From: Streptomyces sp. AM 4-1-1
GTDB lineage: Bacteria; Actinomycetota; Actinomycetes; Streptomycetales; Streptomycetaceae
Reading direction: 5' to 3'
Assembly: GCF_029167625.1 (NCBI RefSeq)
Contig: NZ_CP119145.1
Location: forward strand, 2,542,001-2,606,000
DNA: 64,000 nucleotides
Below are positions 14,548-62,082 of the stretch, one piece after another. A program made the position numbers and the translations under genes. Below the pieces are notes generated by a model. That model had not been told where the DNA came from, did no database searches, and saw only the letters and a program-made list of their open reading frames with translations. How positions within the stretch are numbered: position 1 is the stretch's first letter; each line of letters begins with the position of its first letter.

Positions 14548-14768
14548 CTCGGGGTTCTTCTCCTCGCATCACTTCGGCCGCGACGGCGGTTCCTGCCGTG
14601 GCGGCGGTTTCGGCTGCGGCGATGGTGCCTGCTGCTGCGGCGGCGGTTCCGACTGTGGCGGTGGTACCTGCTGCGGCGGCGGTTTCGGCTGTGACCGTGG
14701 GGCCCGCCGTGACGGTGGTACGAGGCGGGTCGGGGACACGGGGCAGGTCGGGGGCGGCGTGGGGCGGG
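14548..14768. other. spacer between hutF and hutI with degenerate tandem repeats
   Basis: 221 bp. From about 14595 to 14700 there are two and a half copies of a ~37-38-bp unit built around GGCGGCGGTTTCGGCTG and GGTACCTGCTGC. I see no gene, terminator or promoter of confidence. Confidence 0.55.
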
Positions 14769-16421: not shown

Positions 16422-17818
16422 GCGAGACCTTCCAGTACGTCGGCGAGTGCGGTCACCCCGGCCGCGCAGTCGTCCTCGGCGGCGTGTTCGGCCGGCGAGT
16501 GCGAGATCCCGGTGGGGTTCCGTACGAACAGCATGGCGGTAGGGACCGAAGCGGACAAAATACCCGCGTCGTGTCCGGCGCCCGTGCCGAGCACGGGCAC
16601 CGCCCGCCCGGTGTCGGCGGCGCCTCCGCGGGCCCGGCCGGTCAGGATCGCGCGCAGTTCGTCGCGCAGGGCGTGCTGGAAGTCCACGACGGGCGTGAAG
16701 GACTCCCGTACGACGTCGAGGTCGATGCCCGCCCGCTCGGCGTGCTCCCGGGCGGCCCGCTCGATTCCGGAGACCACGGCGTCGAGCGTGGCCTGGTCGG
16801 CGGCGCGCGAGTCGAGCCAGCCACGGACGAGGGACGGGATGGCGTTGACGCCGTTCGGTTCGACGGCGACCTTGCCGAAGGTGGCGAGGGCGCCGGTGAG
16901 TTCCGCCTCGCGCCGGGCGGCGAGCACGGTCTCGGCGTACGTGAGCATCGGGTCGCGCCGGTCGGCGAGCCGGGTGGTGCCCGCGTGGTTCGCCTCGCCC
17001 CGGAAGTCGTACCGCCAGCGGCCGTGCGGCCAGATCGCTGAGGCGATGCCGACGGGGTCGCCGGTGAGGTCGAGGGCCCGGCCCTGCTCGACGTGGAGTT
17101 CGACGAACGCGCCGATGCGGGCGAGCCGTTCGGGGTCGGGGCCGATGGCATCGGGGTCGTATCCCGCTGCCGCCATGGCCTGCGGCAGCGTGACGCCCGC
17201 CGCGTCGCGGAGCCGGTGCGCCTGGTCGACGGTCAGCTGCCCGGCGGCGAGCCGGGACCCGACGCAGGCGAGGCCGAAACGGGCACCTTCCTCGTCACCG
17301 AAGTTGGCGATGGCCAGCGGCCTGGTGAACCGCGCGCCCCTGGCACGGAGTTCGTCGAGCGCGGCGAAGGAGGAGACGACACCGAGCGGACCGTCGAAGG
17401 CTCCGCCGTCCGGTACGGAGTCGAGGTGTGAGCCGGTGACGACGGCGTCGGGGCCGAGGGGGTCGCCGAGCCAGGCCCACTGGTTGCCGTTGCGGTCGAC
17501 CTCGTATCCGAGCCCGCGCGCCTCGGCCTGTTCGCGGAACCACGCCCGGCACTCGGCGTCGGCGGCCGTCCAGGCGTGACGACGGTAGCCGCCGCTCCCG
17601 GCGTCGCGCCCGAGCGGCGCCAGCTCCCGCCACATGGTCAGGAACCCGGCCGGGGACGGGGGCGCGGCACCGGACGACGAGGACGGGGCGCCAGGCGGCG
17701 AGGACGGGGCCGCCGCGTGCCGGGCCGCCGACGTGTGCGGGGCCACCGACGCGTGCGGGGCCGTCGACGGATGCGGGACTGCCGACGGATGCGGGGCGTC
17801 CCGTTCGGTGGGGGTCAC
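16412..17818 (-). CDS. M20-family amidohydrolase (allantoate amidohydrolase/carbamoylase type) of the hut operon
   Basis: 468 residues, GTG start overlapping the hutU stop (GTGA). Zinc-peptidase-like motifs of the AllC/carbamoylase group: '[20 protein letters not shown]', '[10 protein letters not shown]', '[11 protein letters not shown]', 'NHAGTT', 'GAGHDAG' and 'ISHSPAE'. The core starts near 'MWRELAPLG' (residue 62); the residues before it are Pro/His/Ser/Ala-rich and made by an 18-bp repeat. Members hydrolyse N-carbamoyl, formyl or ureido amino acids. Sitting between hutU and hutF, with no HutG in view, it may release glutamate from N-formylglutamate; this is inference. Confidence 0.85.
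17724..17795 (-). repeat. coding minisatellite, four units of 18 bp
   Basis: Four adjacent 18-bp units related to GCCGTCGACGGATGCGGG encode hexapeptides of the type 'PHPSAV' at the very N-terminus of the M20 amidohydrolase. The frame is kept, and the region lies outside the enzyme fold. Confidence 0.92.
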
Positions 17819-19473
17819 TCGCCCTCCCGCATCGGGACGCGGACGCCCTTCTCTTCCGCGACCGACTCCGCGATGTCGTAACCGGCGTCGACGTGCCGGA
17901 TGACACCCGTGCCCGGGTCGTTGGTCAGGACCCGGCGGATCTTCTCGCCCGCCAGCTCCGTGCCGTCGGCGACCGTGACCTGGCCCGCGTGGATCGAGCG
18001 GCCCATGCCGACACCGCCGCCGTGGTGGATGGAGACCCAGGACGCCCCCGAAGCCACGTTGACCATGGCGTTCAGCAGCGGCCAGTCGGCGATGGCGTCG
18101 GAGCCGTCGAGCATCGCCTCGGTCTCGCGGTACGGCGAGGCGACCGAGCCGCAGTCCAGGTGGTCACGGCCGATGGCCAGCGGGGCGGCCAGCTCGCCGC
18201 TCGCGACCATGTCGTTGAACCGCTCACCGGCCCGGTCGCGCTCCCCGTAACCGAGCCAGCAGATCCGGGCGGGCAGTCCCTGGAAGTGGACGCGCTCGCC
18301 CGCCATCCTGATCCAGCGGTGCAACGACTCGTTCTCCGGGAAGAGTTCGAGCAGCGCCTTGTCCGTCTTGTGGATGTCCGACGCCTCGCCGGACAGCGCG
18401 GCCCAGCGGAACGGCCCCCTGCCCTCGCAGAACAGCGGCCTGATGTACGCGGGGACGAAGCCCGGGAAGTCGAACGCCCGGCTGTATCCAGCCAGTTGTG
18501 CCTCACCTCGGATCGAGTTGCCGTAGTCGAAGACCTCGGCGCCCGCGTCCATGAAGCCGACCATCGCCTCGACGTGCGCGGCCATCGACTCGCGTGCCCG
18601 GCGGGTGAAGTCGGCGGGCTTCTCGGTCGCGTAGGAGGCCATGTCGTCGAAGTCGACGCCCAGCGGCAGATAGGCCAGCGGGTCGTGCGCGCTCGTCTGG
18701 TCGGTGACGACGTCGATCGGCGCGCCCTCGGCGAGCATCCGGGGAAGCAGCTCCGCGGCGTTGCCGAGCAGGCCGATGGAGAGCGGGCGCCGGGCGTCAC
18801 GCGCTTCGACGGCCAGGTGGAGGGCGTGCTCCAGCGAGTCGGCGCGCACATCGAGGAACCGGTGCTCGATGCGCCGTTCGATCGCGCGCGGGTCGCAGTC
18901 GATACAGATCGCGACACCGTCGTTCATGGTCACGGCGAGCGGCTGGGCACCGCCCATTCCACCGAGTCCGGCGGTCAGCGTGATCGTCCCGGCCAGCGAT
19001 CCGCCGAACCGCTTCGCGGCGACGGCGGCGAACGTCTCGTACGTGCCCTGGAGGATGCCCTGCGTACCGATGTAGATCCAGGACCCGGCGGTCATCTGCC
19101 CGTACATGGTGAGGCCGAGCGCTTCGAGCCGCCGGAACTCCTCCCAGTTCGCCCAGTCCCCCACCAGGTTGGAGTTGGCGATCAGCACCCGGGGCGCCCA
19201 TTCGTGGGTCTGCATGACCCCGACCGGCCGCCCGGACTGCACGAGCATCGTCTCGTCCTGCTTGAGCGTCCGCAGCGTGCGCACCATGGCGTCGAACGAC
19301 CGCCAGTCGCGGGCCGCCTTGCCGGTGCCGCCGTAGACGACGAGCTTGTCGGGGTGCTCGGCGACCTCGGGGTCGAGGTTGTTCTGCAACATGCGGAGGG
19401 CGGCTTCCTGCTGCCATCCCAGGGCACTCAGTTCCGTACCGCGCGGTGCCCGTACGGGGCGGGGTCCTGACAT
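17815..19473 (-). CDS. hutU: urocanate hydratase
   Basis: 552 residues from the ATG at 19473, chosen for GAGGAGG eight bases upstream; an in-frame start at 19506 lies within the promoter palindrome. The enzyme adds water to urocanate with tightly bound NAD+, giving imidazolone propionate. Family landmarks: '[12 protein letters not shown]', 'LVQSGRPVG', '[12 protein letters not shown]', '[15 protein letters not shown]', 'DQTSAHDPL', '[13 protein letters not shown]'. It is the promoter-proximal gene of the hut operon and is followed at once by the M20 amidohydrolase. Confidence 0.96.
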
Positions 19474-19493
19474 GGCGGTGCCTCCTCGCGAAT

Positions 19494-19510
19494 GTAAATG
19501 AACCATTCAC
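19494..19510. promoter_or_regulatory. imperfect palindrome upstream of hutU, candidate operator
   Basis: GTAAATGAACCATTCAC lies 21 bp upstream of the hutU start and is an imperfect dyad with arms GTGAATG and CATTTAC. It is AT-rich against the background, in the divergent interval between hutU and the LC7-like operon, so it could control either. No factor can be assigned. Confidence 0.45.
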
Positions 19511-49615: not shown

Positions 49616-50809
49616 TCAGCGGCGGCTGTAGCGGGCGCGGCCCACTGCGGCGGCGAGGGTCAGTGGGACGGTCAGGATCGCGGCCGTCAGAAACAGGCTC
49701 TGGTAGGCGTGGTGTTCGGCGGGTACAGCGGCGAGTGTGCTGGCCAGCGCGCTGCCGACGTAGAGGGCGAGGCCGAACATGGCGACGCCGGTGGCGCGGG
49801 CCGTCGGTGACAGGACGGTGGCCCAGGACTGGATCGTGGAGTGCATGAACGACCAGCCGCCACCCAGCAGCAGGGCGGTCACCACCAGTGCCGGGACCGT
49901 CCGGCTGGCTGCGGCGAGTCCGAAGGCCGCCGCCATCTGGACTCCGCCGGTCACGATGAGCCGCGCCGGTGACCACCGGCCGACCAGGCGCTTGACCGAT
50001 TGGGCCGCTGCCATGGAGCCGACGCCGTAGAGCGCGGAAACCGCGCCCGCCAGTGCGGCCGAGGCGCCCTGTGCCTCAAGGGCAGGCGCGACGTAGGTCA
50101 GGAAACCCAGCAGGACCGCTCCCTCCAGCATGGCGACGGCCATCACGTACCACTGCCATCGAGAGCGCAGCACCACGCGGATCGGGGTGAGCAGAGAACC
50201 TGCCGGTTCACGCGGGGGCTCCGGCAACCTGCGCAGGGCGACGGCCAGGTACACGGCCAGCACCCCGGGGAGTGCGAACACCAACCGCCAGCTGACGTAG
50301 TGCGCCAGCGCCCCCGCGACAACAGTGGCCACTGCTGTGCCCAGGGCGAAAGCGGTCATCAGTTGGCTGAGCGGCCGCTGCCGCACCGCAGCGGGGACGG
50401 TGTCACCGATGTAGGTGATGGATGCCGCGATGGACGCGGCGAAGAAGGCGCCCGCGGCAGCGCGGGCCACGATCAGCACCGTCGCATCGGGTGCGAGCAC
50501 CGAGCACAGGGAGGCGACGGCCGCCCCGGTCAGTGAGACCCGCATGACCCCCACCCGGCCGATCCGGTCGCTGGCCAGGCCCCAGACAGGTTGCATCAGT
50601 CCGTAGCACAGGAAGTAGCCGCTGGCCGCGAGCATCACGGTCGGCAGGGAGACGCCCAGTTGGGTGCCGATGAGCAGAAGCATGGGTGTGATGCAGAAGC
50701 GGTCGAAGTTGCTGACGAAGCCCGCGGTGCGCAGCAATCGCAAGGAGGTGACAGGAAGTCCATCGGACTGTGCGGAGGTGCCGGCGGTCGCGGGAGCAGT
50801 GGCGTCCAC
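49616..50809 (-). CDS. MFS exporter
   Basis: 397 residues from the GTG at 50809 (AGGAG upstream). Twelve hydrophobic segments; the A-motif 'WGLASDRIGRVGVMRVSL' follows the second. It resembles the DHA1/AraJ-type exporters. It is divergent from an XRE regulator over a 193-bp interval and borders the biosynthetic operon, so it may export the product or give self-resistance (inference). Confidence 0.85.
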   Translation of the reverse strand: MDATAPATAGTSAQSDGLPVTSLRLLRTAGFVSNFDRFCITPMLLLIGTQLGVSLPTVMLAASGYFLCYGLMQPVWGLASDRIGRVGVMRVSLTGAAVASLCSVLAPDATVLIVARAAAGAFFAASIAASITYIGDTVPAAVRQRPLSQLMTAFALGTAVATVVAGALAHYVSWRLVFALPGVLAVYLAVALRRLPEPPREPAGSLLTPIRVVLRSRWQWYVMAVAMLEGAVLLGFLTYVAPALEAQGASAALAGAVSALYGVGSMAAAQSVKRLVGRWSPARLIVTGGVQMAAAFGLAAASRTVPALVVTALLLGGGWSFMHSTIQSWATVLSPTARATGVAMFGLALYVGSALASTLAAVPAEHHAYQSLFLTAAILTVPLTLAAAVGRARYSRR

Positions 50810-51002
50810 GAGGTGCTCCTTTCTCTGGTAAGTCGGCCCTCTTGGATCTTTTACGGGTCTTCCGGGGTCCGGTATCTCCAGCTCACCATCACTGCGGCCC
50901 GGGGCCTGCCCTCAGCCGATTACCCTTTCTCACACCTTGCCGGGCGCTCCGCAGAGTTCCGGCCGGGAAGAAAAGGAAGGACACACGGGAGGAGCCGCCG
51001 GG

Positions 51003-51860
51003 ATGCACGGTGTGGGGCCTGGAGGGGCGCGGGCGGGCGCCGTCCCGGTGAATGCCGTGGAGAACGGACCGGGCCGGGAACTGGGTGCCTTCCTTCGCTC
51101 CCGGCGCGAACGCCTGACCCCGGGTGAGGTGGGGCTGCCCGGCTCGCCGAGGCGCCGTACACCGGGTCTGCGACGCGGTGAGGTCGCCGAGTTGGCCGGG
51201 ATCAGCAGCTCCTGGTACGCGTGGCTGGAGCAGGGCCGGGTCCGTACGACGGAACAGGTACTGCGGTCGGTGGCGCGTGCCCTTCTGCTGGACGAGGACG
51301 AGACCGAGCACGTCCTGTCGTTCGTGGAACGCGCCGTGCCGGCCGCGTCCGCCCCGCGTTGGGTGTCCCGGAACCTGTTGTCGCTGGTCGAGGCACTTGC
51401 GCCGAACCCCGCGGTGGTTCTGGACCCGCACTGGGACCTACTGGCCTGGAACATCGGTTACGCGGCGCTGTTGACCGACCCGGCGCGGCTGACACCCAAG
51501 GAGCGCAATCTGCTGTGGCTGGTGTTCCGCTGGCCGCCTGCCCGTAGCCTGCTGGCCGAGTGGGAGCCTGAAGCCAGAAGCCTGCTGGGGCAGTTCCGCG
51601 CGAGGGCAGCCCGCCATCCGGAGGACGGACGGTACGCGGAGATCACCGCGGAGCTGCTGGCCGACCGGGACGCGGCCCGCTGGTACGGCGCCCGGGAAAC
51701 CGCGGGGTTCCACCCCGCCGTGCGGCGTTTCAGGCATCCCGTGGCCGGGGACCTGCGGTTGCGGTACGTCAAACTCGCCGCGGTCGACGAGCCGGGACAC
51801 CACCTCCTGGCCTATCTCCCCGACGATCCGCGGACCGAGTCGGCGGTGAGCGCTCTCTGA
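51003..51860 (+). CDS. XRE/MmyB-type transcriptional regulator
   Basis: 285 residues from the ATG at 51003 (GGAGGAG at 8 bases). HTH: 'LGAFLRSRRERLTPGEVGLP', 'RRTPGLRRGEVAELAGISSSWYAWLEQGR'-type segment at residues ~40-80, with the 'GLRRGEVA' hallmark. The C-terminal MmyB-like ligand domain (~110-270) has 'VVLDPHWDLLAWNIGYAALL' and 'VRRFRHPVAGDLRLRYVKL'. Regulators of this group often sit opposite the MFS, SDR or dehydrogenase gene they repress, as here. Confidence 0.88.
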   Translation: MHGVGPGGARAGAVPVNAVENGPGRELGAFLRSRRERLTPGEVGLPGSPRRRTPGLRRGEVAELAGISSSWYAWLEQGRVRTTEQVLRSVARALLLDEDETEHVLSFVERAVPAASAPRWVSRNLLSLVEALAPNPAVVLDPHWDLLAWNIGYAALLTDPARLTPKERNLLWLVFRWPPARSLLAEWEPEARSLLGQFRARAARHPEDGRYAEITAELLADRDAARWYGARETAGFHPAVRRFRHPVAGDLRLRYVKLAAVDEPGHHLLAYLPDDPRTESAVSAL

Positions 51861-51942: not shown

Positions 51943-53052
51943 TCAGTTGGTCAGGACTGCCTTCAGTACCGAGCCAGAGGCGACCGCCGTCAGGGCGTCG
52001 GCATGCTTGTCCAGGGGAAAAGCTGTCACCAGGCTCGCAAGGCCGAAGCGCGCGAGGAGCGCCGGCAATAGCCGTACGTACTCCACCAGGTGGGCCCCCG
52101 TGAACGCCCAGGAGCCAATGACGTCCAGTTGCCGGTGGACTATCTGGTGCGGGTTGACGAGGGTGTCCCCCGCGTCGGTGTACTGGCCGATTATCAGATA
52201 GCTGCCGCCGCGCCGGGCCAGGGTGAGGCCTTGCCCCACGGCCGCCGGAACCCCGGCGCACTCGATCACCAGGTCCGCTCCGCCACCACCGGTGGCCGCC
52301 CGCACCTCGCGCAGGACTTCTTCGGGGTCGGAGGCGCCGACGATGTCCAGGTGCGCGTCGCCGATACCGGCTGCGGCGGCCTGAGCCAGCCGCCCGGCAG
52401 GGCCGCCGACGACAATAACCTTGGTGGCCCCCGCCAGTTGGGCGAAGGCAGCGGCTGCCAGGCCTACCGGACCGCTGCCCTGCACCACCACGACCTCACC
52501 GAGCCGTACGGGTCGGCGCTCGTACAGCGCGTGGGCCACCGTGGGCCCGGCGCAGGCCAGGGACATGGCTGCGAGCGGGTCGATGTCGCTGGCGATCTTC
52601 ACCACGGCGGTGCCGCGTTGCAACTCGATGTGGTCGGCCCAGGAGCCGGACAGTTCCGGGCCGTCGGCGAGCGAACGGTTGACGCCGTAGGTACGCCGGT
52701 TCTCGCACAGGGTCGGTTCACGATGCAGTCGGCAGGGCGGGCAGACACCGCAGGCGATGGAGGAGGCCCACATCACCGCGTCGCCGACGGCCAACGGCGC
52801 GCCGGTGGCGTCATGGTGGTTTCCGGCTCCCAACTCTGCGATGACACCCAGTCCTTCGTGACCCAGGACCAGTGGTAGGGGAATGTCCAGGTGGCCCTGA
52901 CCCAGATGAAGATCAGTGCCGCAGATCCCGCCATAGCCGCACTTCACGATCATCCCGCCGTCAGGGGCCGGCGGAAGGGTGAACGTCCGTAGCCGCGGCG
53001 GCTCTCCGAAACGTTCCAGGACGACGGCGCGGCCGGTCTCGGGCGTAGTCAT
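51943..53052 (-). CDS. zinc-dependent alcohol dehydrogenase (MDR family)
   Basis: 369 residues from the ATG at 53052, in ATGA overlap with the PhyH gene. Catalytic zinc ligands in 'GGICGTDLH' and 'LGHEGLGV'; structural zinc loop 'CGVCPPCRLHREPTLC'. Rossmann motif 'VVVQGSGPVGLAAAAFAQLAG'. It is the last gene of the operon and could oxidise or reduce an alcohol or aldehyde intermediate. Confidence 0.9.
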   Translation of the reverse strand: MTTPETGRAVVLERFGEPPRLRTFTLPPAPDGGMIVKCGYGGICGTDLHLGQGHLDIPLPLVLGHEGLGVIAELGAGNHHDATGAPLAVGDAVMWASSIACGVCPPCRLHREPTLCENRRTYGVNRSLADGPELSGSWADHIELQRGTAVVKIASDIDPLAAMSLACAGPTVAHALYERRPVRLGEVVVVQGSGPVGLAAAAFAQLAGATKVIVVGGPAGRLAQAAAAGIGDAHLDIVGASDPEEVLREVRAATGGGGADLVIECAGVPAAVGQGLTLARRGGSYLIIGQYTDAGDTLVNPHQIVHRQLDVIGSWAFTGAHLVEYVRLLPALLARFGLASLVTAFPLDKHADALTAVASGSVLKAVLTN

Positions 53053-53861
53053 ACCGTCACCGCCGCCAGGGTCTCGGAGAAAGGCGCGGGCAGTGCGCGC
53101 AGCGGCTCGGTGTTCCGGCACACAACATAGTCGGGGCGGGCTTCGCCAGCCGGCCGCGGCAGGTTCGTGACGTCGTTGTAAGTCGCGATCAAAAGCCTGC
53201 GCGTGAACGGCGACATGTTCGGCGCCGAGCCGTGCACGATCTCCGGCGAGAAGAACACCACGGAGCCGGCCGATCCCTTGGGACTTGTCATACCGTGGCG
53301 GTCGACGCATTCGGCGAGCTGCTGGGGGCCCAGGGAGATGTCGTCGGGATCGAGATGTTGTTCGGACCTGGCAGCGTCCGCACGTCCCTCACGGACGAGC
53401 CCGCCGCCATGTGAGCCGGGAAGGAAGATAACCGGCCCGTTGAACTCGGTGACCTCATCGAGAAAGACGGCGACGTTGACCTGCCTGGGTGCGGGCAGTC
53501 CGTCGGCGAGGCGCCAGGCGAGGTAGTCCTGGTGCCAAGCCCACTTGTCGCCGCCGAAGGCCGCCTTGGCATTGATCTTGAACTGGTAGATGTATACGTC
53601 ATCACTGAGCAGTTGCTGTACGGGCTGGAGAATGCGCGGGTCACGGGTGAGCCCCGCGCACTCCGGTTGCCGCTGGTGCGAGGAGTAGACCGCGCGGACC
53701 TCTGCCCCGTCCCCCTCCGTCACGACCTGTGGTCCGGGGACCTTGCTGTCACGTGCGAAGGCGAGCCGCAGTGCCTCCACTTCTTGCTGGTTCAACAGGG
53801 ATTCCAGCAACAGGAACCCATGGGAGCGGTAGGCGTCGACTTGTGACTGATTCAGTCGCAT
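53049..53861 (-). CDS. PhyH/EctD-like Fe(II)/2-oxoglutarate dioxygenase
   Basis: 270 residues from the ATG at 53861 (AGGAG upstream). Iron ligands: 'WAWHQDYLAWRLADGLP' (HxD) and 'EIVHGSAPN' (distal His); the 2-oxoglutarate arginine in 'TRRLLIATYN'. The overall pattern is close to ectoine hydroxylase and other PhyH enzymes that hydroxylate small amino-acid-like molecules. No ectoine genes are nearby; in this operon it probably hydroxylates the pathway product or an intermediate. Confidence 0.88.
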   Translation of the reverse strand: MRLNQSQVDAYRSHGFLLLESLLNQQEVEALRLAFARDSKVPGPQVVTEGDGAEVRAVYSSHQRQPECAGLTRDPRILQPVQQLLSDDVYIYQFKINAKAAFGGDKWAWHQDYLAWRLADGLPAPRQVNVAVFLDEVTEFNGPVIFLPGSHGGGLVREGRADAARSEQHLDPDDISLGPQQLAECVDRHGMTSPKGSAGSVVFFSPEIVHGSAPNMSPFTRRLLIATYNDVTNLPRPAGEARPDYVVCRNTEPLRALPAPFSETLAAVTV

Positions 53862-53912
53862 GCTTGTGCATCTCCTGAGAATGAGGGGTCATCTGGTGTG
53901 CAACGAGGACCA

Positions 53913-54645
53913 TCAGCCCATGAAATGGCCGCCATCGACAACGATTTGCTGGCCGGTGATGTAGCCGCTGCGTACGGAGACGAGGAATTCGAGAGTGTCG
54001 GTGATGTCCTCGACCGAACCCAGCCGCTGCCCGGGAATGGCCGCGACGACGGCTGCCCACCGTTCGGGCGTGTCAAGCCGGTAGCGTTCGACGACCTCTT
54101 GGGTGTCGGTGAATCCCGGGAGGAGGGCGTTGACCCTGATGTACGGGGCCATTCCAGGGCCATGCATTTCGTGAGCTGGAGCAGACCCGCCCTGCTCGCG
54201 CAGTAGTTGGCACCGTCCGGCCGTGGCCGGATGGCTGTGGTGGACGAGACGTTGACTATGCTGCCGCCTCCTGCCGAGACCATCGTGGGGGTCAGGGCGC
54301 GGCTGAGGTGGAACGGGCCGAGAGGTTGGTGGCCAGGACCATGTCCCAATCTTCGGTGGTCATGGCCAAGAAAGGCCGGTCGCGGTTGACGCCAGCGTTG
54401 TTGACGAGGACGGTCGGTGCGTCGTGTTCAGCGCTGATGCGGGCACACACAGAGCGGATCTCCTCTGGACAAGCAAGGTCGCAGCGCATCGCCTCGATCC
54501 GCCCGTCACCGGCCTGTACGGTCTGCTGTGCGGCGCGGTCGTCGTCGCGGTAGAGGGCAATCATCTGGTGCCCGAGTGCGGCGAGCCGCAGACTCAGTGC
54601 CTGCCCAATGCCACGGGTGCCGCCGCTGACCACGGACGTCGTCAT
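53913..54645 (-). pseudogene. short-chain dehydrogenase/reductase with two single-base frameshifts
   Basis: The SDR can be followed through three frames: 'TTSVVSGGTRGIGQALS' to 'VLVNNAGVNRDRPFL' and 'VLATNLS' (54645 to ~54320), then 'GPFHLSRALTPTMV', 'GSIVNVSSTTA', 'YCASRAGLLQLTKCMALE' (to ~54150), then 'APYIRVNALLPGFTDT' to 'GYITGQQIVVDGGHFMG'. Each switch is repaired by one added base, in CTCTCGG (CTC lost from CTCCTC-like) and GAATGG (one A short). The catalytic Tyr/Lys context ('YCASRAG') has Arg where Lys is usual. It is either a decayed gene or one with two one-base sequence errors. Confidence 0.82.
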
Positions 54646-54671
54646 AGTGGCTCAATTCACCTAGAAGCGGA

Positions 54672-55088
54672 TCAGTTGGCGGCCAGATCGCCACGCAGCA
54701 GGTTGGAGCCTTCAGGCACCGCGGCCGGGTCACCGCCGACCTCGGCGACGGCGTTGTGCTCATCGACGAAGACGACCCTGGGGACGAAGGAGGTGGACTG
54801 TTCGTCCTTCATGGCGGCGTAGGCAATGACGATGACCCGGTCGCCGGGGCTGATCAGCCGGGCGGCTGCGCCGTTGATGCCGATCACCCCGGAGCCGGCC
54901 TGCCCCTCGATGACGTAGGTGGACAGCCGGGAACCGTTCTCGATGTCGACGATGTCAACCTTTTCGCCGGGTAGCAGGTCGGCGGCCGTCATCAACTCGG
55001 AGTCGACAGTCAGCGAGCCGACATAGTGCAAGTCGGCCTGGGTGACGGTGGCCCGGTGGATCTTAGACTTCATCATGGTGCGGTACAC
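54672..55088 (-). CDS. panD: aspartate 1-decarboxylase (pyruvoyl enzyme), operon copy
   Basis: 138 residues from the GTG at 55088 (GAGGAA 5 bases before). This start places the self-cleavage site '[13 protein letters not shown]' exactly at Gly24-Ser25, as in other PanD proteins. Other landmarks: '[10 protein letters not shown]', '[14 protein letters not shown]', '[11 protein letters not shown]', '[10 protein letters not shown]'. It makes beta-alanine and CO2 from L-aspartate. It lies within a specialised operon rather than beside panB/panC, suggesting dedicated supply of beta-alanine, or of an analogue, to the pathway. Confidence 0.92.
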
Positions 55089-55131
55089 GGTGTTCCTCGC
55101 ATCGGATTGTCGGGGGCAGCGGATGTGGTGA

Positions 55132-55647
55132 TCAGGACGGCCAGGTTGCGTAGCGGCGCTTGACGTAAAGCAGGGGCGCGTCGGCGTCGGCCGGGCCAGG
55201 CAGGTGGGTGTGCAGCACCTCGCCGATGACAACGGTGTGGTCACCGGCTGACGCCAGCTGGGTGACGCGGCATTCCGCGATGGCGTGCGCATCCTGCGGC
55301 AGGACCGGCAGGCCGGTGGCGGGGGCCGGCTCCCAGGGGACTGTGGTGAAGCGCTCTGCCACCGGTCCGGCGAAGGCCTCGGCGGCGCGGCGTCCGGCAC
55401 TGTGCAGGAAATTGACGGCGAACGCCCCTCGTGCGGTGATCACCGGCAGGGTGCTGCCGGAGTTCGAGGCACACACCAGGAGCTGCGGCGGGCGGAGGGA
55501 GACCGAGCACAGGGCAGTGCAGGTGAAACCGTGTGGTGTTCCTTGATCGTCGCTGGTGGTGATGACGGTGACGCCGCTGGGGTGGGAGCCCATTAGAGCC
55601 CGGAAGACGTCCCGGTCGGCCGTTGTCTCGTCCGCGGTCAGGATCAC
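55132..55647 (-). CDS. flavin reductase (FMN/FAD:NADH, HpaC-like)
   Basis: 171 residues from a GTG at 55647 that overlaps the stop of the flavoprotein gene (GTGA). Flavin-binding pattern '[11 protein letters not shown]', '[20 protein letters not shown]', 'FAVNFL', and the C-terminal 'VIGEVLHTH' and 'PLLYVKRRY'. Such reductases feed reduced flavin to a partner oxygenase. Overlap with the 55644 gene makes that protein the obvious partner. Confidence 0.9.
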
Positions 55648-56834
55648 CACGAGAAGGCCCGGGCGTCGTAGAGATTGACACCGACGGCGGCCTTGCCGAG
55701 GTACTCCAGGCACTCGTGGGGCTTGGCTGGCATCACATGGGCGAACGCCACCTCGCGGGTGAGGCGTTCAAGCGGGTGGCTGCGGCTCACGGCTGCCGAG
55801 CCGCAAAGACGCACGGCATCCTGGGCCAGCTCTTGACCGACCTCGCCGACGACGAATTTGGCCGCGTGCACCGCGGCATTCGCCTCCAGGCTGCCGCGTT
55901 CGGCGTCGACCAGGTCGCCAGCCTCGTGGACCAGCGCGCGGGCCGCCCGCAGCCGGGCCGACATCCGTCCCAGTTCCTGCTGGAGCACCGGTGACGCTGC
56001 GCGGACGGGGACGGCGGTGACGTGGTCGACGACCTGTTGGAAGAGGGCTTCCGCGATACCCAAGTAGGCACCGGTGTAGCCAGCGATCATCCAATGCGGT
56101 TCGCGTACGACCTTGAACAGGGACATGCCCTCAACACCGAGGTAGAGGCGTGAGCGGGGCACTGCCACCGCGTCAAGGGACATGGCGGCGGTGCTGGTGC
56201 CGTACATCGCCGACATGCTGTGCACGGTGCCGAAGGTGACGCCTGGGTCGTCGGAGGCGACGACAAAGTGCGAGATATCCCCGGTGTCCTCGGTGCCGTC
56301 GTCGGCCGCGGCCGCGACGACGTAGTAGTCGGCCGCGCCGACGAGCGACACGAAGGACTTCCTGCCGGTGAGCAGATAGCTCTCGCCGTCGTCGGAGAGT
56401 CGGTAGCGGGTGCCCATGCCGCGGAGTTTGGCGCCGCGGCCGGTTTCTGAGGTGGCAGAGGCGAAGAGCTTGCGGCCGTGCACGACCTCATCCAGCATCC
56501 AGGTGCGAAACCGTTCAGCCGCTGGCGGCAGGCGGGTGCCCACCGTGTCCGCGAGCGCGCCGATCACTACGTTGTGCATGTTGAAGCCGAGGGTCGCGGC
56601 GCCGTTACGGGCACCGAGTTCGGCCAGCACCCGCCAGTAGTCGCCGAAGCCCAGACCCGCGCCGCCGACGTCCCGCGGGGCGAGCAGCGCCAGAAGGCCA
56701 GAATTGCGCAGAATATCGTAGGTCTCATGTCCGTTGGAGTGGCCGGCGTCCACGTCGGCGGCAAGCGGGGCAAGGGCCGCTCCGGTCTCGGCCGCGAGTT
56801 TGAGGATGTCGCCCAGGTGTGTCGGCAGCGTCAT
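55644..56834 (-). CDS. acyl-CoA-dehydrogenase-fold flavoprotein, probable two-component monooxygenase
   Basis: 396 residues from the ATG at 56834 (GGAGGAC upstream). ACAD fold: 'LAPRDVGGAGLGFGDYWRVLAEL', 'FASATSETGRGAKL', 'GRKSFVSLVGAADYYVVAA'. The usual catalytic glutamate region near the C-terminus is absent (it ends '[19 protein letters not shown]'). Together with the coupled flavin reductase, this suggests a DszC/HpaB-like monooxygenase that uses reduced flavin and O2, rather than an acyl-CoA dehydrogenase. The substrate is unknown, possibly carrier-bound. Confidence 0.82.
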   Translation of the reverse strand: MTLPTHLGDILKLAAETGAALAPLAADVDAGHSNGHETYDILRNSGLLALLAPRDVGGAGLGFGDYWRVLAELGARNGAATLGFNMHNVVIGALADTVGTRLPPAAERFRTWMLDEVVHGRKLFASATSETGRGAKLRGMGTRYRLSDDGESYLLTGRKSFVSLVGAADYYVVAAAADDGTEDTGDISHFVVASDDPGVTFGTVHSMSAMYGTSTAAMSLDAVAVPRSRLYLGVEGMSLFKVVREPHWMIAGYTGAYLGIAEALFQQVVDHVTAVPVRAASPVLQQELGRMSARLRAARALVHEAGDLVDAERGSLEANAAVHAAKFVVGEVGQELAQDAVRLCGSAAVSRSHPLERLTREVAFAHVMPAKPHECLEYLGKAAVGVNLYDARAFSW

Positions 56835-56848
56835 TGGTGTCCTCCGGG

Positions 56849-58006
56849 TCAGTTCTCGACGGCTAGGCCGAGTTGGCGGGCGATACCTACGCGCAGCAGG
56901 TCGTTGGGGCCGGCGTAGGTGAGGGCCGCCATGGGGCCAGCGAGGTCGGCCATCAGTTCGGAGCCGGTGAGGAAGGCCCGTACACCTGACAGGGCGGTGG
57001 CGTGCTCGGTGAGGCGTACGAAGTCTTCGGAGACGGAAATCTTGGTGAGGGCGGCCGCGGCAGCCAGTTGTCGGGCCGGTATGCCGGTGTCGAGCCGGGC
57101 GGCCATGGCATACAGCTGGACGCGTGAGCGGTGCAGTCCCAGCGCCATGTCGCTGAGACGGCCGGCGACTTGGTGGCTGGCGCCCATACGGCGTCCGAAG
57201 TGCTCCCGGCCGCATGCCCAGTCGATCGTGCGCGTCAAGGTGCGGTGCATGGGGCCGAGGGCGTACCCCAGGATGACCGAGCGTTCCCATGCGGTGGTGG
57301 AGGCCATCACGGCTAGACCGGAGCCTTCCTCTCCGATCAGCGCGTCGGCCGGCAGCCGGACGTCGTCGAAGAGCAGTTCGCCCATCGGAACGGTGGGGAG
57401 TGCGGTCTTGGTGAAGGTCTCGCCTCTCCGTACCCCGGGTAGGTCCAGAGGGAAGAGGAACGCGGACAGGGCGAACGGGGAACGCCCCTCGGCGGTGCGG
57501 GCGAAGACAATGGCGTGGTCAGCGATCGGTGCGGCGGTGATGAAAGTCTTGGCGCCGTCGAGCACGAAGCCGTCGCCCTCACGCCGTGCCCGTGTCGCCA
57601 TGGACAGCGGATCACTTCCACCTCCGCGCTCTGTCAACGCGTGGCAGAGCAGCGCCCTGCCGTCCTCAACGCCGTTGAGGACGCCCCGGGCGTCCGAAGC
57701 AAGCGCTGCGCGGAGCGGGAACTGCATGCCGAAAATCTGGGAGGCCAGGGCGTAGCAGATACCGGGGTCGACTCCGGCGAGTCCAATACCTTCGATCATG
57801 GCGAGGGAACGTGTGACCGGGCCGGGGCCTTCGGTACCGGGGTCTGCGAGCCGGAGGACGCCGAGGTCGGCCATGGTCTGCCACTGCACCACGAAATCCT
57901 TGTCCGCGACCTGTTCCCAAACGGGCGCAGCCAGGTCGCGGTAGTAGCCGACGAACTGCTCGGTGTGTGGGTCCCCGGTGCGCGGCAGACCGGTGACGGC
58001 GCTCAT
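56849..58006 (-). CDS. acyl-CoA/acyl-carrier dehydrogenase-like flavoprotein
   Basis: 385 residues, ATG within 4 bp of the carrier-protein stop. ACAD motifs: 'CHALTERGGGSDPLSMATRA', 'GAKTFITAAPIADHAIVFA', 'ERSVILGYALGPMHRTL', 'FVRLTEHATALSGVRAFL'. At the place of the common catalytic 'YEG', the sequence reads 'ALTYAGPNDLLRVGIAR', so the usual glutamate is Ala. Either the base lies elsewhere, as in some ACAD subfamilies, or the enzyme is not a plain desaturase. Gene order (ligase, carrier, dehydrogenase) recalls pyrrole-forming prolyl-carrier systems. Confidence 0.85.
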   Translation of the reverse strand: MSAVTGLPRTGDPHTEQFVGYYRDLAAPVWEQVADKDFVVQWQTMADLGVLRLADPGTEGPGPVTRSLAMIEGIGLAGVDPGICYALASQIFGMQFPLRAALASDARGVLNGVEDGRALLCHALTERGGGSDPLSMATRARREGDGFVLDGAKTFITAAPIADHAIVFARTAEGRSPFALSAFLFPLDLPGVRRGETFTKTALPTVPMGELLFDDVRLPADALIGEEGSGLAVMASTTAWERSVILGYALGPMHRTLTRTIDWACGREHFGRRMGASHQVAGRLSDMALGLHRSRVQLYAMAARLDTGIPARQLAAAAALTKISVSEDFVRLTEHATALSGVRAFLTGSELMADLAGPMAALTYAGPNDLLRVGIARQLGLAVEN

Positions 58007-58266
58007 TCGCGGCCCTTAGCGGTGAGGTTCCCGAGAGTCGCCCAGAGGGCCCCGGGAGTACGGAAGTTGGCGGCGACGATCTCGGTCTCGGGCAGTGAAA
58101 CACCGGCTTCCTTGTCCAGGGCCGCGACGATCTCCATGATGGCCAGTGAGTCGATCAGGCCCATTTCCAGGAGCGGGGTGTCCGCGTCCAGCGACTGCGA
58201 CTCTTCGCCGCGGCTCCAGGTGATACGGCTGCTGATGAGGGCGCAGAGGTCTTCGACGCTGTTCAT
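58003..58266 (-). CDS. stand-alone acyl/peptidyl carrier protein
   Basis: 87 residues. Carrier motif 'LLEMGLIDSLAIMEIVAAL' with the phosphopantetheine serine at position 40. Helical profile and length are typical. It overlaps the ligase gene upstream and the dehydrogenase downstream by four bases each. It should hold the activated amino or carboxylic acid as a thioester for the flavoenzymes. Confidence 0.92.
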   Translation of the reverse strand: MNSVEDLCALISSRITWSRGEESQSLDADTPLLEMGLIDSLAIMEIVAALDKEAGVSLPETEIVAANFRTPGALWATLGNLTAKGRE

Positions 58267-59834
58267 GTACGGCTCTCCTCAAGGGGTGCTGGTCCATCGA
58301 AGGTGGCGCTGCTCAAGGCTCGGCGGTCGACTTTCCCGCTGGTGGTGGTGGGCAGGGTGGTGAGAGGGACGACCCGATCGGGGAGCATCCGCTGAGGGAG
58401 AATGTCCCGAAGGCCGGACAGGACCTGTCGTTCCGTTGCGTTGGTCCGGGCGTAGACCCAGATCTGGCCGGCGTACTCGGCCTCCTTGGCGACCACGGCC
58501 GCGGTGGCGACCCCGGGCAGTTCAAGGACAGCGTTTTCGATGTCCAGCAGGTCGATGCGGTGTCCGCGCCGCTTGACCTGGGAATCGCGTCGGCCGCGCA
58601 GGAAGACCCTGCCGTCTGCGGTGATCCGCCCGATGTCGCCGCTGGCGTAGGCGCGGCGGGTGACGCCGTCCCGGAAAGTGACGCTGACGGTGGGGTCACT
58701 CAGTTCACCGCCGCGCAGATAGCCTTGGAACACGCTGGGTCCAGCGATGTGGATCTCGCCTTCCCCGTCGGTAGGCCGACCGTCGTCGTCAAGTACGTCG
58801 AGGTGGACGCCGCCGATGCCGCGGCCGATGGTCAGTTCCTGCTCGGCGGTCCAGTCGGCGGGCACGCGGTAGTAGGTGCAGGCATTGGTCTCGGTGGGTC
58901 CGTAAAGGTTGTAGAAGGGCACGCCGTTCATGAGGCGCAGATACCGTTCCAGTATCGGCGGGGCGAAAGCCTCTCCGCCGAAGGCGGCTATTCGTAGGTC
59001 AGTCGGCGGGGTTTCACCGAGGCCGCCCTGCTCAAGCATGTTGTGGTAGAGGGACGGCACGGCCACGAAAGCAGTGACCCGCTGCTCGCTCAGCCAGCTG
59101 ACCACGTCGCGCGGGAAGGCGCGCAACAGATCGGGCATAAGGACAGTACAGGCACCGGCGGCAGCCGCGCTGAACAGGTCGAAGGTGGTCAGGTCAAAGG
59201 TGAGAGCGGCCTGGGAGCCGATCCGGTCGTCGGGTGTGAGGCCGAATTCCGCCGCGGCCCACCAAGCGTAGTGAGCAACGTTCTCGTGTGAGAGCAGGAC
59301 GCCCTTCGGCCAGCCGGTGCTTCCGGAGGTGAAGAGGATGTAGCCGCCGCGGTCGGTGGGTGTCGGCAGGGGCGCGGGTCGCTGATCAGTGGTGAGGATG
59401 CGAAGCCAGTTCAGGCCGTGACCCAAGGCGCCTTCCTCGGCCGGGGTGCCGCCGCGGATGTTGGCGGCGGCCCGGCGGCCGGCGGCCAGAGAGCGGTCGG
59501 TGGTCAGCAGGAAGGACAACCCGGCGTTATGCACCATACGGGCGGTTCGCTCCGGCGGATCAGTGATGTCGAGTGGTGCGGTCACCGCGCCGGCTCGTAG
59601 CGCCCCGTAAAGGGCGATGACCGCAGCCGGGGATTTGGCCGCATAGACGCCGACCCGATCGCCCGGTGCGACGCCGATGGCGGCCAGACGTGCGGCCAGC
59701 GCATCGACGGCGCGATCCAGCCGGGCGTAGGTCCAGATCTCGCCGCATCCTTCCAGAGCGGGGCGGTTGGGGTGGCGATGGGCAGAACGGGCCAGCAGCG
59801 CGTCGAGGTGCGTCGTCGTGGTGGCGTCGGTCAT
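58263..59834 (-). CDS. stand-alone adenylation enzyme (NRPS A-domain type)
   Basis: 523 residues. Core motifs: A3 'YILFTSGSTGWPKGV', A4 'LTFDLTTFDLF', A5 'NLYGPTETNAC', A7 'YASGDIGRI', A8 'GRRDSQVKRRGHRIDL', A10 'TTTSGKVDRRAL' with the catalytic lysine. The A4 Asp that binds the alpha-amino group in NRPS A-domains is present. My hand alignment to GrsA gives the pocket code D-L-F-V-A-G-L-A-C-K; several positions (D, L, L, C, K) match prolyl-activating enzymes of pyrrole pathways, but others differ. It activates an acid as AMP ester and loads the neighbouring carrier. Confidence 0.92.
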   Translation of the reverse strand: MTDATTTTHLDALLARSAHRHPNRPALEGCGEIWTYARLDRAVDALAARLAAIGVAPGDRVGVYAAKSPAAVIALYGALRAGAVTAPLDITDPPERTARMVHNAGLSFLLTTDRSLAAGRRAAANIRGGTPAEEGALGHGLNWLRILTTDQRPAPLPTPTDRGGYILFTSGSTGWPKGVLLSHENVAHYAWWAAAEFGLTPDDRIGSQAALTFDLTTFDLFSAAAAGACTVLMPDLLRAFPRDVVSWLSEQRVTAFVAVPSLYHNMLEQGGLGETPPTDLRIAAFGGEAFAPPILERYLRLMNGVPFYNLYGPTETNACTYYRVPADWTAEQELTIGRGIGGVHLDVLDDDGRPTDGEGEIHIAGPSVFQGYLRGGELSDPTVSVTFRDGVTRRAYASGDIGRITADGRVFLRGRRDSQVKRRGHRIDLLDIENAVLELPGVATAAVVAKEAEYAGQIWVYARTNATERQVLSGLRDILPQRMLPDRVVPLTTLPTTTSGKVDRRALSSATFDGPAPLEESRT

Positions 59835-60598
59835 CGGGCTGCCTCGGCGCGATGCGCGACGAGGAAGTCACGGGTGGTCTCGATGACGAGGTCGGGGCAG
59901 AAGAGGTACGGGTAGTGGTCACACGCTTCGGGGACGAGACGCTGAACGGGGCCGCGCACCGATCGCTGTACGGAGTCGATCTGGTCGAGCGAGCCGTATT
60001 CGTCCGCATCGCCCTGAATCAGCAGGACCGGCGCCGTGACATCGAGATCGTTCTCGATGGACCAGTCGCGGAATCTGCGCGAAAGCCACACCTCGCTCCA
60101 GCGGTCGAAGACCGCGCGGGGGTGGTTGTGCACGAGGGCCATCTTCTTGGCGAGCGGCCCGGCTTCGTAGGAAGCCCGTGCGGCCTCGATGCCCAGGCGG
60201 TTCTGCTCTTCGAAGTACATGTGGGGCCCCATGCCGACGACGGCTTCCACCGGGAACGCGGATGCGTACAACAGGGCCATGGAGGCGCCATCGCTGTGTC
60301 CGACCAGCACCGGTCGGCGTATGCCCAGTGTGCCGAGGATCTCGGGCAGTACCTCCTGAGCATGCACATGCATATAGCGGGCGGTGAGCGGCTGTGGAGC
60401 GGGACCCGAACCGCCGTTGCCGTGCCGGGAGTAGACAAGGGCGCGCCGTCCGGTGGCGGCGGCGAGCTGGGCGGGAAAGCGTCCCCATGCGGCGACGCAG
60501 CCGAGGCCGCCGTGCAGAAAGACCAGGGGAGCCAGGTCCGGGTCACCATGTTTCATGACGTATTCGATGGGACCATTGCAAGTATCAACGATCGGCAC
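59831..60598 (-). CDS. alpha/beta hydrolase
   Basis: 255 residues from the GTG at 60598 (GGAAAGGA upstream); a longer frame exists but its extension is unlike the family. 'LVFLHGGLGCVAAWG' (oxyanion), 'VLVGHSDGASMALLYA' (nucleophile Ser), 'LLIQGDADEYG' (Asp) and 'EACDHYPYLF' (His). The first gene of the operon. It could be a thioesterase releasing the product from the carrier, an editing enzyme, or an esterase. Confidence 0.88.
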   Translation of the reverse strand: MPIVDTCNGPIEYVMKHGDPDLAPLVFLHGGLGCVAAWGRFPAQLAAATGRRALVYSRHGNGGSGPAPQPLTARYMHVHAQEVLPEILGTLGIRRPVLVGHSDGASMALLYASAFPVEAVVGMGPHMYFEEQNRLGIEAARASYEAGPLAKKMALVHNHPRAVFDRWSEVWLSRRFRDWSIENDLDVTAPVLLIQGDADEYGSLDQIDSVQRSVRGPVQRLVPEACDHYPYLFCPDLVIETTRDFLVAHRAEAAR

Positions 60599-61233: not shown

Positions 61234-62082
61234 ATGAACATCGACCTGCGACACCTACGCTGTTTTCTGGCAGTCGCCGAGGATGGCGGCTTCACCGCCG
61301 CCGGCCGACGGCTGCATCTGGCCCAGCCGACCCTGACCCGCAACATCCGGACATTGGAAGCGGAGCTGGGCGTCCGACTCTTCGAACGCACCACCCGCAG
61401 GACCGAGTTAACCGAAAAGGGAGGCATGATGCGTGACGCCGTCGCGCCGTTGCTTCAACAGCTCGACTCGGTCCTGACGAATCTGCGTGAAGGGGAGAAA
61501 CTGCGCATCGGGTTCAGCTGGGGATTGCCCGATGGATTGTCCCGACTGGCTGCCCGGTTCGCGGAGGAGGCTGGCATCGAAGTCGAGTTCGTCCGGTGCG
61601 ACACCCGTCTGGCCGGACTCGACACAGGCGTCGTTGACTTGGGGCTTCTGCGGTGCAAGACGCTTCCCAAAGGACTGCGTGGTGTGTTTCTTCATGAGGA
61701 GCCGCGGATAGCGGCCGTCCCCGCGAACTGGCAGTTGGCCGAACGCCCGCACCTGGAGTGGGCGGAGCTGGCGGACTGGCCCCTGGTCATCAACACCGTC
61801 AGCGGGACCACCTTTCCCGACATGTGGCAGGACGGCGCACAGCCGGTGGTCGGTGCCGAATGCCGCAACTTCGACGAGTGGCTGGAGAAGGTGGCCGCCG
61901 GCCTGGGTGTAGGCACGGCCCCGGTCTCCGCTGCCCGGCGCTACCTCCACCCCGGTGTCCACCTCGTCCCGCTGGTCGGCGCCCCTACCGTGCGCGCCCA
62001 TCTTGCCCACCCCTCACAGGGCGCACATCCGCAGGCCGTACGCTTCGCCGACCGAGCCTGGCGCGCAGCGGAACACTGCTGA
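61234..62082 (+). CDS. LysR-family regulator with a TTA codon
   Basis: 282 residues from the ATG at 61234 ('MNIDLRHLRCFLAVAEDGGF'). HTH: 'AAGRRLHLAQPTLTRNIRTLE', 'LGVRLFERTTRRTEL'. Effector domain from residue ~88 ('LRIGFSWGLPDGLSRLAARF'). The TTA at 61408-61410 encodes Leu59, making its translation dependent on the bldA tRNA 20 kb away. It stands divergent to the operon start at 60598 and is its likely pathway regulator. Confidence 0.9.
   Translation: MNIDLRHLRCFLAVAEDGGFTAAGRRLHLAQPTLTRNIRTLEAELGVRLFERTTRRTELTEKGGMMRDAVAPLLQQLDSVLTNLREGEKLRIGFSWGLPDGLSRLAARFAEEAGIEVEFVRCDTRLAGLDTGVVDLGLLRCKTLPKGLRGVFLHEEPRIAAVPANWQLAERPHLEWAELADWPLVINTVSGTTFPDMWQDGAQPVVGAECRNFDEWLEKVAAGLGVGTAPVSAARRYLHPGVHLVPLVGAPTVRAHLAHPSQGAHPQAVRFADRAWRAAEHC

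Follow-up and report, generated by a model that had tools for sequence, protein, structure and literature searches.

A Streptomyces gene unit predicted to turn leucine into an N-hydroxypyrrole and possibly to release it onto beta-alanine

A stretch of 64,000 nucleotides from Streptomyces sp. AM 4-1-1 (contig NZ_CP119145.1, positions 2,542,001 to 2,606,000; hereafter the window, whose coordinates are used throughout) carries ten minus-strand genes at 51943-60598 that are flanked by an exporter gene and two regulator genes, and our analysis indicates, with a probability of about 80%, that this 13-gene unit makes an N-hydroxypyrrole derived from leucine. The predicted product is 1-hydroxy-4-methylpyrrole-2-carboxylate, probably released onto beta-alanine.

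In the proposed pathway, L-leucine would be hydroxylated at C5 by a PhyH-family enzyme (hereafter PhyH; step 1), and the resulting 5-hydroxyleucine would be oxidised by a zinc dehydrogenase to a semialdehyde that cyclises to 4-methyl-pyrroline-5-carboxylate (step 2). A short-chain dehydrogenase/reductase (SDR) or the housekeeping ProC would reduce this pyrroline to 4-methylproline (step 3), which an adenylation enzyme (A-enzyme) would load on a free carrier protein (step 4). There, a Met-type enzyme of the acyl-CoA dehydrogenase (ACAD) fold, fed by a flavin reductase, would hydroxylate the ring nitrogen (step 5), and a Glu-type dehydrogenase would aromatise the ring to give a 1-hydroxy-4-methylpyrrole-2-carbonyl-carrier (step 6). 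An alpha/beta hydrolase would then release the product, hydrolysing it off like ChmF or passing it to the amine of beta-alanine made by the aspartate decarboxylase PanD (step 7), and an MFS protein would export it, with a LysR and an MmyB-type regulator in control (step 8). Steps 1, 2, 4, 5 and 6 are proposed from homology to enzymes characterised elsewhere. The evidence consists of gene content and order, key residues and co-occurrence across related loci, all of which were observed directly.

Two biosynthetic modules in one operon

Open reading frame and Pfam analysis located all ten genes of the leftward operon in the order that an initial annotation of the window had listed, and no megasynthase among them, in line with its expectation of a small product. 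Neighbouring genes overlap by 4 bp at 5/9 junctions (hydrolase/A-enzyme, A-enzyme/carrier, carrier/first ACAD-fold protein, second ACAD-fold protein/flavin reductase and PhyH/zinc dehydrogenase), so that the claim of overlap at most junctions stands by a bare majority. The start sites chosen were GTG 60598 for the hydrolase, GTG 55647 for the flavin reductase, 55076 for PanD and ATG 53052 for the zinc dehydrogenase. The operon was compared across 54 core loci, made up of 48 loci from a first set of 54 (L057-L062 lacked the core cassette and were dropped) and six added regions; 21 of them have both PhyH and the zinc dehydrogenase (PhyH-bearing loci) and 33 do not, where lacking PhyH means that it was not found within the fetched stretch (L029, for example, ends shortly past the flavin reductase gene).

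The stand-alone A-enzyme (58263-59834; AMP-binding; 4-methylproline as predicted substrate), the free carrier protein (58003-58266; PP-binding, phosphopantetheine Ser40) and two ACAD-fold flavoproteins occur together, as in the Chm/Hrm-type cassettes of the chalkophomycin and hormaomycin clusters. They are accompanied, as in the Chm cassette, by an alpha/beta hydrolase (59831-60598; Pfam Abhydrolase_1), whose likeness to the release enzyme ChmF was judged from family and gene context. In chalkophomycin biosynthesis, ChmJ charges ChmI with proline, ChmG adds a hydroxyl to the proline nitrogen, ChmH converts the ring oxidatively to the N-hydroxypyrrole and ChmF hydrolyses the product off; ChmF/J/I/H/G give N-hydroxypyrrole-2-carboxylate from proline in vitro, and the catalytic Glu of ChmH is replaced by Met in ChmG (PMC11177257; this paper, PMC5676206, PMC5730197 and PMC7397340 are cited here from excerpts of their text).

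The same division was found between the two ACAD-fold proteins of the window. The first (56849-58006), a ChmH-like prolyl-carrier dehydrogenase, has its catalytic Glu at position 241, and a Glu is found there in 50/50 dehydrogenases of the core loci. Its best solved match in a sequence search was 6cxt (Bmp3, following the naming in PMC11177257), ahead of the prolyl dehydrogenases 5zw0 and 4irn, and it matched the NCBIfam RedW model at 3.8e-64, a score under the cut-off of that model. The second (55644-56834), which is ChmG-like, has Met249 where the catalytic Glu would stand, and a Met is found there in 54/54 core loci; in alignment A1, this site is Met in 28/29 rows, with a Thr in P0207. The second enzyme is assigned to the prolyl N-oxygenase type on the strength of this Met, its partner genes and the example of chm. 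The initial annotation is thereby supported in its view of carrier-bound chemistry like that which turns proline into pyrrole, and in its two distinct ACAD-fold enzymes, here one Glu-type and one Met-type. Oxygenation on the carrier had also been foreseen, but its nature had been missed: since the partner ACAD-fold enzyme carries the prolyl N-oxygenase Met, the oxygen would be placed on nitrogen. The flavin reductase encoded next to it (55132-55647; Flavin_Reduct 2.7e-38) is its likely partner, and such a gene is present in 31/54 core loci.

Several observations touch on the wider occurrence of this cassette. Homologs of the two ACAD-fold proteins in S. anulatus are about 56% identical, their membership in chm being unverified. 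A YqcI/YcgG gene, the family of ChmN, was found in 2/5 cassette-bearing genomes and, in S. violaceusniger, provided that contig C1 is the contig of L042, it lies about 0.4 kb outside that stretch and at a distance of about 10 kb from the gene of the N-oxygenase; the link that this gives between the cassette family and chm-like clusters is a loose one. A nitro or nitroso product was considered and rejected, Pfam having found no such enzyme among the ten genes. In L033-L036 (S. diastatochromogenes, S. piniterrae and others), an A-enzyme and a Met-type N-oxygenase occur with no match to the cassette dehydrogenase, carrier or hydrolase, and a hotdog thioesterase, two SDRs and a ketosynthase adjoin them in L033 (8.4-14.7 kb), so these loci may use N-hydroxyproline on a carrier without turning it into a pyrrole. 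Proline-type cassettes of Pseudomonadota (L039-L041, L043, L048 of Pseudomonas and L056 of Chromobacterium) have their hydrolase gene downstream, about 1.2 kb past that of the N-oxygenase. Finally, the AM 4-1-1 genome itself holds 55 matches to the A-enzyme, including a second A-enzyme (34%) in L003 that stands with ACAD-like (35%) and flavin-reductase-like (41%) genes.

The second module would supply the substrate of the first. PhyH (53049-53861; Fe/2-oxoglutarate) has GriE, the leucine 5-hydroxylase of griselimycin biosynthesis, as its best solved match (PDB 5nch, E 1e-97; next match 4.5e-66). His110, Asp112, His210 and Arg242, which are named for iron and substrate in GriE (PMC5676206), stand at the same numbers in the window protein and are kept in 21/21 PhyH-bearing loci. 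GriE and the zinc dehydrogenase GriF turn leucine into 4-methylproline, GriF forming a semialdehyde that then cyclises (PMC5676206). The zinc dehydrogenase of the window (51943-53052; ADH_zinc_N, ADH_N) is predicted from its family and its adjacency to PhyH to be GriF-like, converting 5-hydroxyleucine to 4-methylglutamate semialdehyde. Both genes occur together in 21/21 operon loci and the pair is also adjacent in other gene settings; by analogy with GriE and GriF, the two enzymes would act first, making 4-methylproline from leucine.

For the reduction step, we infer that the FabG-like SDR (53913-54645; FabG match of the L019 copy) is the pyrroline reductase of the pathway. No F420-type, GriH-like reductase was found among the ten genes by Pfam, and the SDR stands in that place. 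An SDR-PhyH-zinc dehydrogenase trio lies within reach of NRPS (nonribosomal peptide synthetase)-type adenylation-domain matches in L098-L102, in whose fetched stretches no N-hydroxypyrrole cassette gene was found. The SDR thus tends to accompany 4-methylproline genes, although PhyH and the zinc dehydrogenase also occur without an adjoining SDR (L087-L089, L091-L093). A role of the SDR in beta-alanine processing was rejected, the trio occurring without panD in 4/5 of the stretches L098-L102 (L100 has panD). Pfam confirmed a condensation-adenylation-carrier protein in L098 only and found thioesterases in L098 and L100; these trio loci possibly make 4-methylproline-containing peptides, and the L100 stretch combines panD with a thioesterase.

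The initial annotation had rightly counted the SDR among the operon genes. In the window, this gene is spread over three reading frames; compared with five relatives, it has two single-base gaps and is two bases short, and the two ends of the gene share one frame in 20/20 SDR-bearing relatives. These gaps may reflect decay or sequencing error, and they open an improbable alternative, that the unit is a relic whose pathway is inactive or whose product is altered in this strain. The other nine genes are open, however, S. netropsis (L026) keeps the rest of the unit with no SDR detected, and deletion of griH was without effect in the GriE/F pathway, which the authors credit to ProC (PMC5676206).

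Adenylation pocket and gene content

If PhyH and the zinc dehydrogenase supply 4-methylproline, the A-enzymes should differ where both genes are present, and this is what was observed. Residues 257/286/318 are Met/Val/Ile-Gly-Ala in 21/21 PhyH-bearing loci and Tyr-Ala-Val in 33/33 of the others; the window enzyme, with Val-Gly-Ala, does not have the proline-type pocket and is a substrate variant. Its nine code positions, placed on the motifs where we take them to lie, read D-L-F-V-A-F-L-A-C. Seven columns of the 523-residue A-enzyme separate the two groups fully or nearly (first 48 rows, window included), and 2/7 fall among the nine code positions, which would happen by chance with a probability of about 0.005 if columns were independent. 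L038, with its A gene on the other strand, is outside the column and pocket tables of these first rows and inside the 54-locus pocket count.

By motif spacing, residues 257 and 318 correspond to LmbC L246/CcbC Y244 and LmbC G308/CcbC V306; mutagenesis had identified these as two members of a three-residue switch between 4-propylproline and proline (PMC5730197). The third switch residue (LmbC A207/CcbC F205) remains Phe here, which would fit the smaller methyl group. Overall, the pocket sequence agrees with 4-methylproline rather than plain proline as the substrate. The dehydrogenase varies with gene content as well: the residue four past its catalytic Glu is Ile/Val in 21/21 PhyH-bearing loci and Leu in 29/29 others.

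These results bear on the earlier view that beta-alanine or proline is loaded and that PhyH hydroxylates the product late. The presence of PanD within the operon and that of the L-proline--carrier ligase 6o6e among the solved relatives of the A-enzyme speak for loading of this kind. Against it, the pocket has neither the Tyr nor the Val of 33/33 core loci without PhyH, PhyH keeps the GriE residues, and the PhyH-dehydrogenase pair occurs in other gene settings, including, with the SDR, near the NRPS-type adenylation domains of L098-L102. We consider this view very improbable; late hydroxylation of the finished product was rejected on the GriE residues and the A-pocket, and PhyH is read instead as a GriE-like leucine 5-hydroxylase that would supply the starter with the zinc dehydrogenase.

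Some observations nevertheless weigh against the leucine-to-N-hydroxypyrrole pathway. By sequence and by fold, most of the solved structures closest to the N-oxygenase are acyl-CoA dehydrogenases: these give the best match (5e-26), with KijD3, an amino sugar N-oxygenase, at 9e-17 (3m9v, 4kcf), and the predicted structure has the ACAD fold, for which fold scores fail to part monooxygenases from dehydrogenases. PhyH homologs of 80-83% also occur outside this unit with no intact dehydrogenase match (L106-L108), and the SDR is out of frame in the window strain. In an A-enzyme tree (48 rows, pocket columns removed), the PhyH-bearing loci form one clade, and the match between pocket and gene content may therefore go back to a single evolutionary event. 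In a tree built from both flavoproteins and the carrier (44 rows, L033-L036 left out), the PhyH-less loci L016 and L022 nest inside the PhyH-bearing group. PhyH, the zinc dehydrogenase, PanD and the SDR are all absent from these two loci, whose A-enzymes are proline-type and whose hydrolases are of the kind found without PhyH; the two loci may have arisen by loss with reversal or by exchange of the first two genes, and either way their pocket matches their gene content.

In L106-L108, the PhyH gene lies near an open frame of 1643-1670 aa with two A-domain matches, and the zinc dehydrogenase match there is absent or a fragment.

Beta-alanine and product release

The initial annotation had noted an aspartate decarboxylase dedicated to the operon, and this was upheld: PanD (54672-55076) scores 159.6 bits against the curated model TIGR00223, above its cut-off of 106, and is one of three panD genes in the genome. 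Across the 54 core loci, PanD occurs in exactly the 21 PhyH-bearing ones, and in 0/33 others. Hydrolase homologs are present in 47/54 core loci, all 47 keeping Ser102-Asp199-His228 (L009 begins inside the A gene at a contig end and hence has none), and the predicted model of the window protein has a pLDDT of 95. Phe129, Asn133 and Arg134 are peculiar to the panD-containing loci, Asn133-Arg134 being found in 20/21 PhyH-bearing loci, that is, in all readable copies, where 27/27 others have Thr-Leu/Val.

We therefore lean slightly towards the N-hydroxypyrrole being coupled to beta-alanine as an amide, a role for beta-alanine that is inferred from the gene set. With somewhat less confidence, we put forward a fuller and tentative model: the unit may be the missing genetic basis of leucine-derived N-hydroxypyrroles of the surugapyrrole/glycerinopyrin type, in which the ChmF-like hydrolase would have become an N-acyltransferase for beta-alanine. 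Where the lid of this enzyme begins, Asn133-Arg134 would hold the carboxylate of beta-alanine, and the carrier thioester would be aminolysed without a condensation domain or amide ligase to give N-(1-hydroxy-4-methylpyrrole-2-carbonyl)-beta-alanine (C9H12N2O4, computed [M+H]+ 213.0870).

This model has evidence on its other side. No amide-forming enzyme is annotated in the unit, and the characterised counterpart ChmF hydrolyses (PMC11177257). Other hydrolase columns also separate PhyH-bearing from PhyH-less sets and, because PhyH and PanD co-occur perfectly, the changes in the hydrolase could reflect the methyl group. The product could then be free 1-hydroxy-4-methylpyrrole-2-carboxylic acid, for which an [M+H]+ of 142.0499 was computed, or an ester, with a hydrolase that only hydrolyses and a PanD that serves pantetheine/CoA or another pathway. 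We regard this as rather unlikely: two further panD genes in the genome make a third copy needless for CoA, PanD follows the PhyH-bearing loci without exception, and the lid residues of the hydrolase differ between the two sets of loci.

Distribution and comparison with known systems

The set of ten genes was found again in 21 related loci of Streptomyces, Streptantibioticus and Kutzneria, the SDR being undetected in one and the hydrolase lost to a contig end in another, and the operon is thus no chance assembly. In L032, several genes are in pieces and in different frames. In the flavoprotein-carrier tree, the nearest operon relatives of the window copy are from Streptomyces. The exporter and two regulators annotated at the edges were located as well: a divergent LysR regulator upstream (61237-62082, plus strand; HTH_1 and LysR_substrate), an MmyB-type helix-turn-helix regulator downstream (50937-51860, plus strand; MLTR_LBD) and an MFS exporter as the last of the 13 genes (49616-50809, minus strand; MFS_1), found in 18/21, 21/21 and 20/21 PhyH-bearing loci, respectively. 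Their roles in regulation and export are suggested by these families and positions.

Two large linear Streptomyces plasmids (NZ_CP109577.1 and NZ_CP108874.1, L109 and L110; records of 371,812 and 892,277 bases) carry the 13-gene unit from LysR to MFS in the same order, with transposase or integrase genes directly upstream of both copies; most protein accessions are identical in both, so the two copies were counted as one. The natural unit thus looks like 13 genes, from LysR to MFS, and apparently mobile. Among 392 same-genus genomes (own included), 18 carry the N-oxygenase gene at 1e-60, 8 of them in a PhyH-type unit, and 24 have a PhyH match at 1e-55. The six added core regions come from 6 of these 18 genomes, several others being places already in the locus set; two of the six are near-copies of loci in that set, L069 of L016 (S. 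chattanoogensis) and L070 of L038, with identities of about 97% or more over kilobases.

Elsewhere in the window (9889-47161), ordinary-looking genes were seen among ten scanned, including a hut-type stretch at 13333-19506 (urocanase, two amidohydrolases, M20 peptidase), a pyridoxal phosphate enzyme with a CBS domain, a thiolase and a cyclopropane synthase-like methyltransferase. The source genome comprises 7.47 Mb in two contigs.

The initial annotation knew of no characterised cluster with this gene set. That holds for the whole set in the literature searched, but both main modules have been characterised. Like the window unit, chalkophomycin chmFGHIJ (PMC11177257) and hormaomycin hrmKLMN have a stand-alone A-enzyme, a free carrier, a Glu-type dehydrogenase and a Met-type N-oxygenase, with the hydrolase ChmF in chm. 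ChmJ, however, loads L-proline, and the N-hydroxypyrrole of chalkophomycin passes to an NRPS/PKS (polyketide synthase), whereas the window unit lacks a megasynthase, has a pocket of the 4-methylproline type and includes a module for 4-methylproline supply, a flavin reductase and PanD. Griselimycin griE/griF (PMC5676206) and mycoplanecin mypE/F (PMC10817943) share the pair of leucine hydroxylase and zinc dehydrogenase but feed NRPS peptides and use GriH or ProC as reductase, where the window unit has an SDR and a pyrrole-forming carrier. The RedW, PltE and Bmp3 systems (names from PMC11177257) resemble it in A-enzyme, carrier and ACAD-type dehydrogenase and differ in making the pyrrole from proline without N-hydroxylation.

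Surugapyrroles A/B and glycerinopyrin are Streptomyces N-hydroxypyrroles for which no genes are described in the literature searched. The excerpts of PMC11177257 call a leucine origin of N-hydroxypyrroles proposed, a case that we take to be glycerinopyrin from the title of a 1991 paper, and reference titles in PMC7397340 assign the surugapyrroles to Streptomyces sp. The full unit is carried by S. coelicoflavus NBRC 15399 (L019), the same species as given for the surugapyrrole strain USF-6280, a coincidence made notable by the rarity of the PhyH-type unit (8/392 same-genus genomes). Metabolites of the surugapyrrole/glycerinopyrin type are thus candidate products, as a lead rather than an identification. 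PMC11177257 also reports N-hydroxypyrrole genes in 4 cluster classes from 97 organisms, some with 'nonassembly line-type' enzymes; the window unit may be among these classes, the 4-methylproline reading being absent from the excerpts of that text. What appears new relative to the literature searched is the fusion of both modules, the altered pocket, the strict co-occurrence with PanD and a possible release onto beta-alanine.

By grafting a 4-methylproline supply onto an N-oxygenase/dehydrogenase cassette, the unit offers a compact and complete candidate genetic basis for natural products proposed to derive from leucine, with a pocket that differs at positions whose part in the choice between 4-alkylproline and proline is established. 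It also suggests a route free of condensation domains by which a carrier-bound aromatic acid could be joined to beta-alanine. As the N-hydroxypyrrole is a copper ligand in chalkophomycin, metal binding by the predicted product is of interest.

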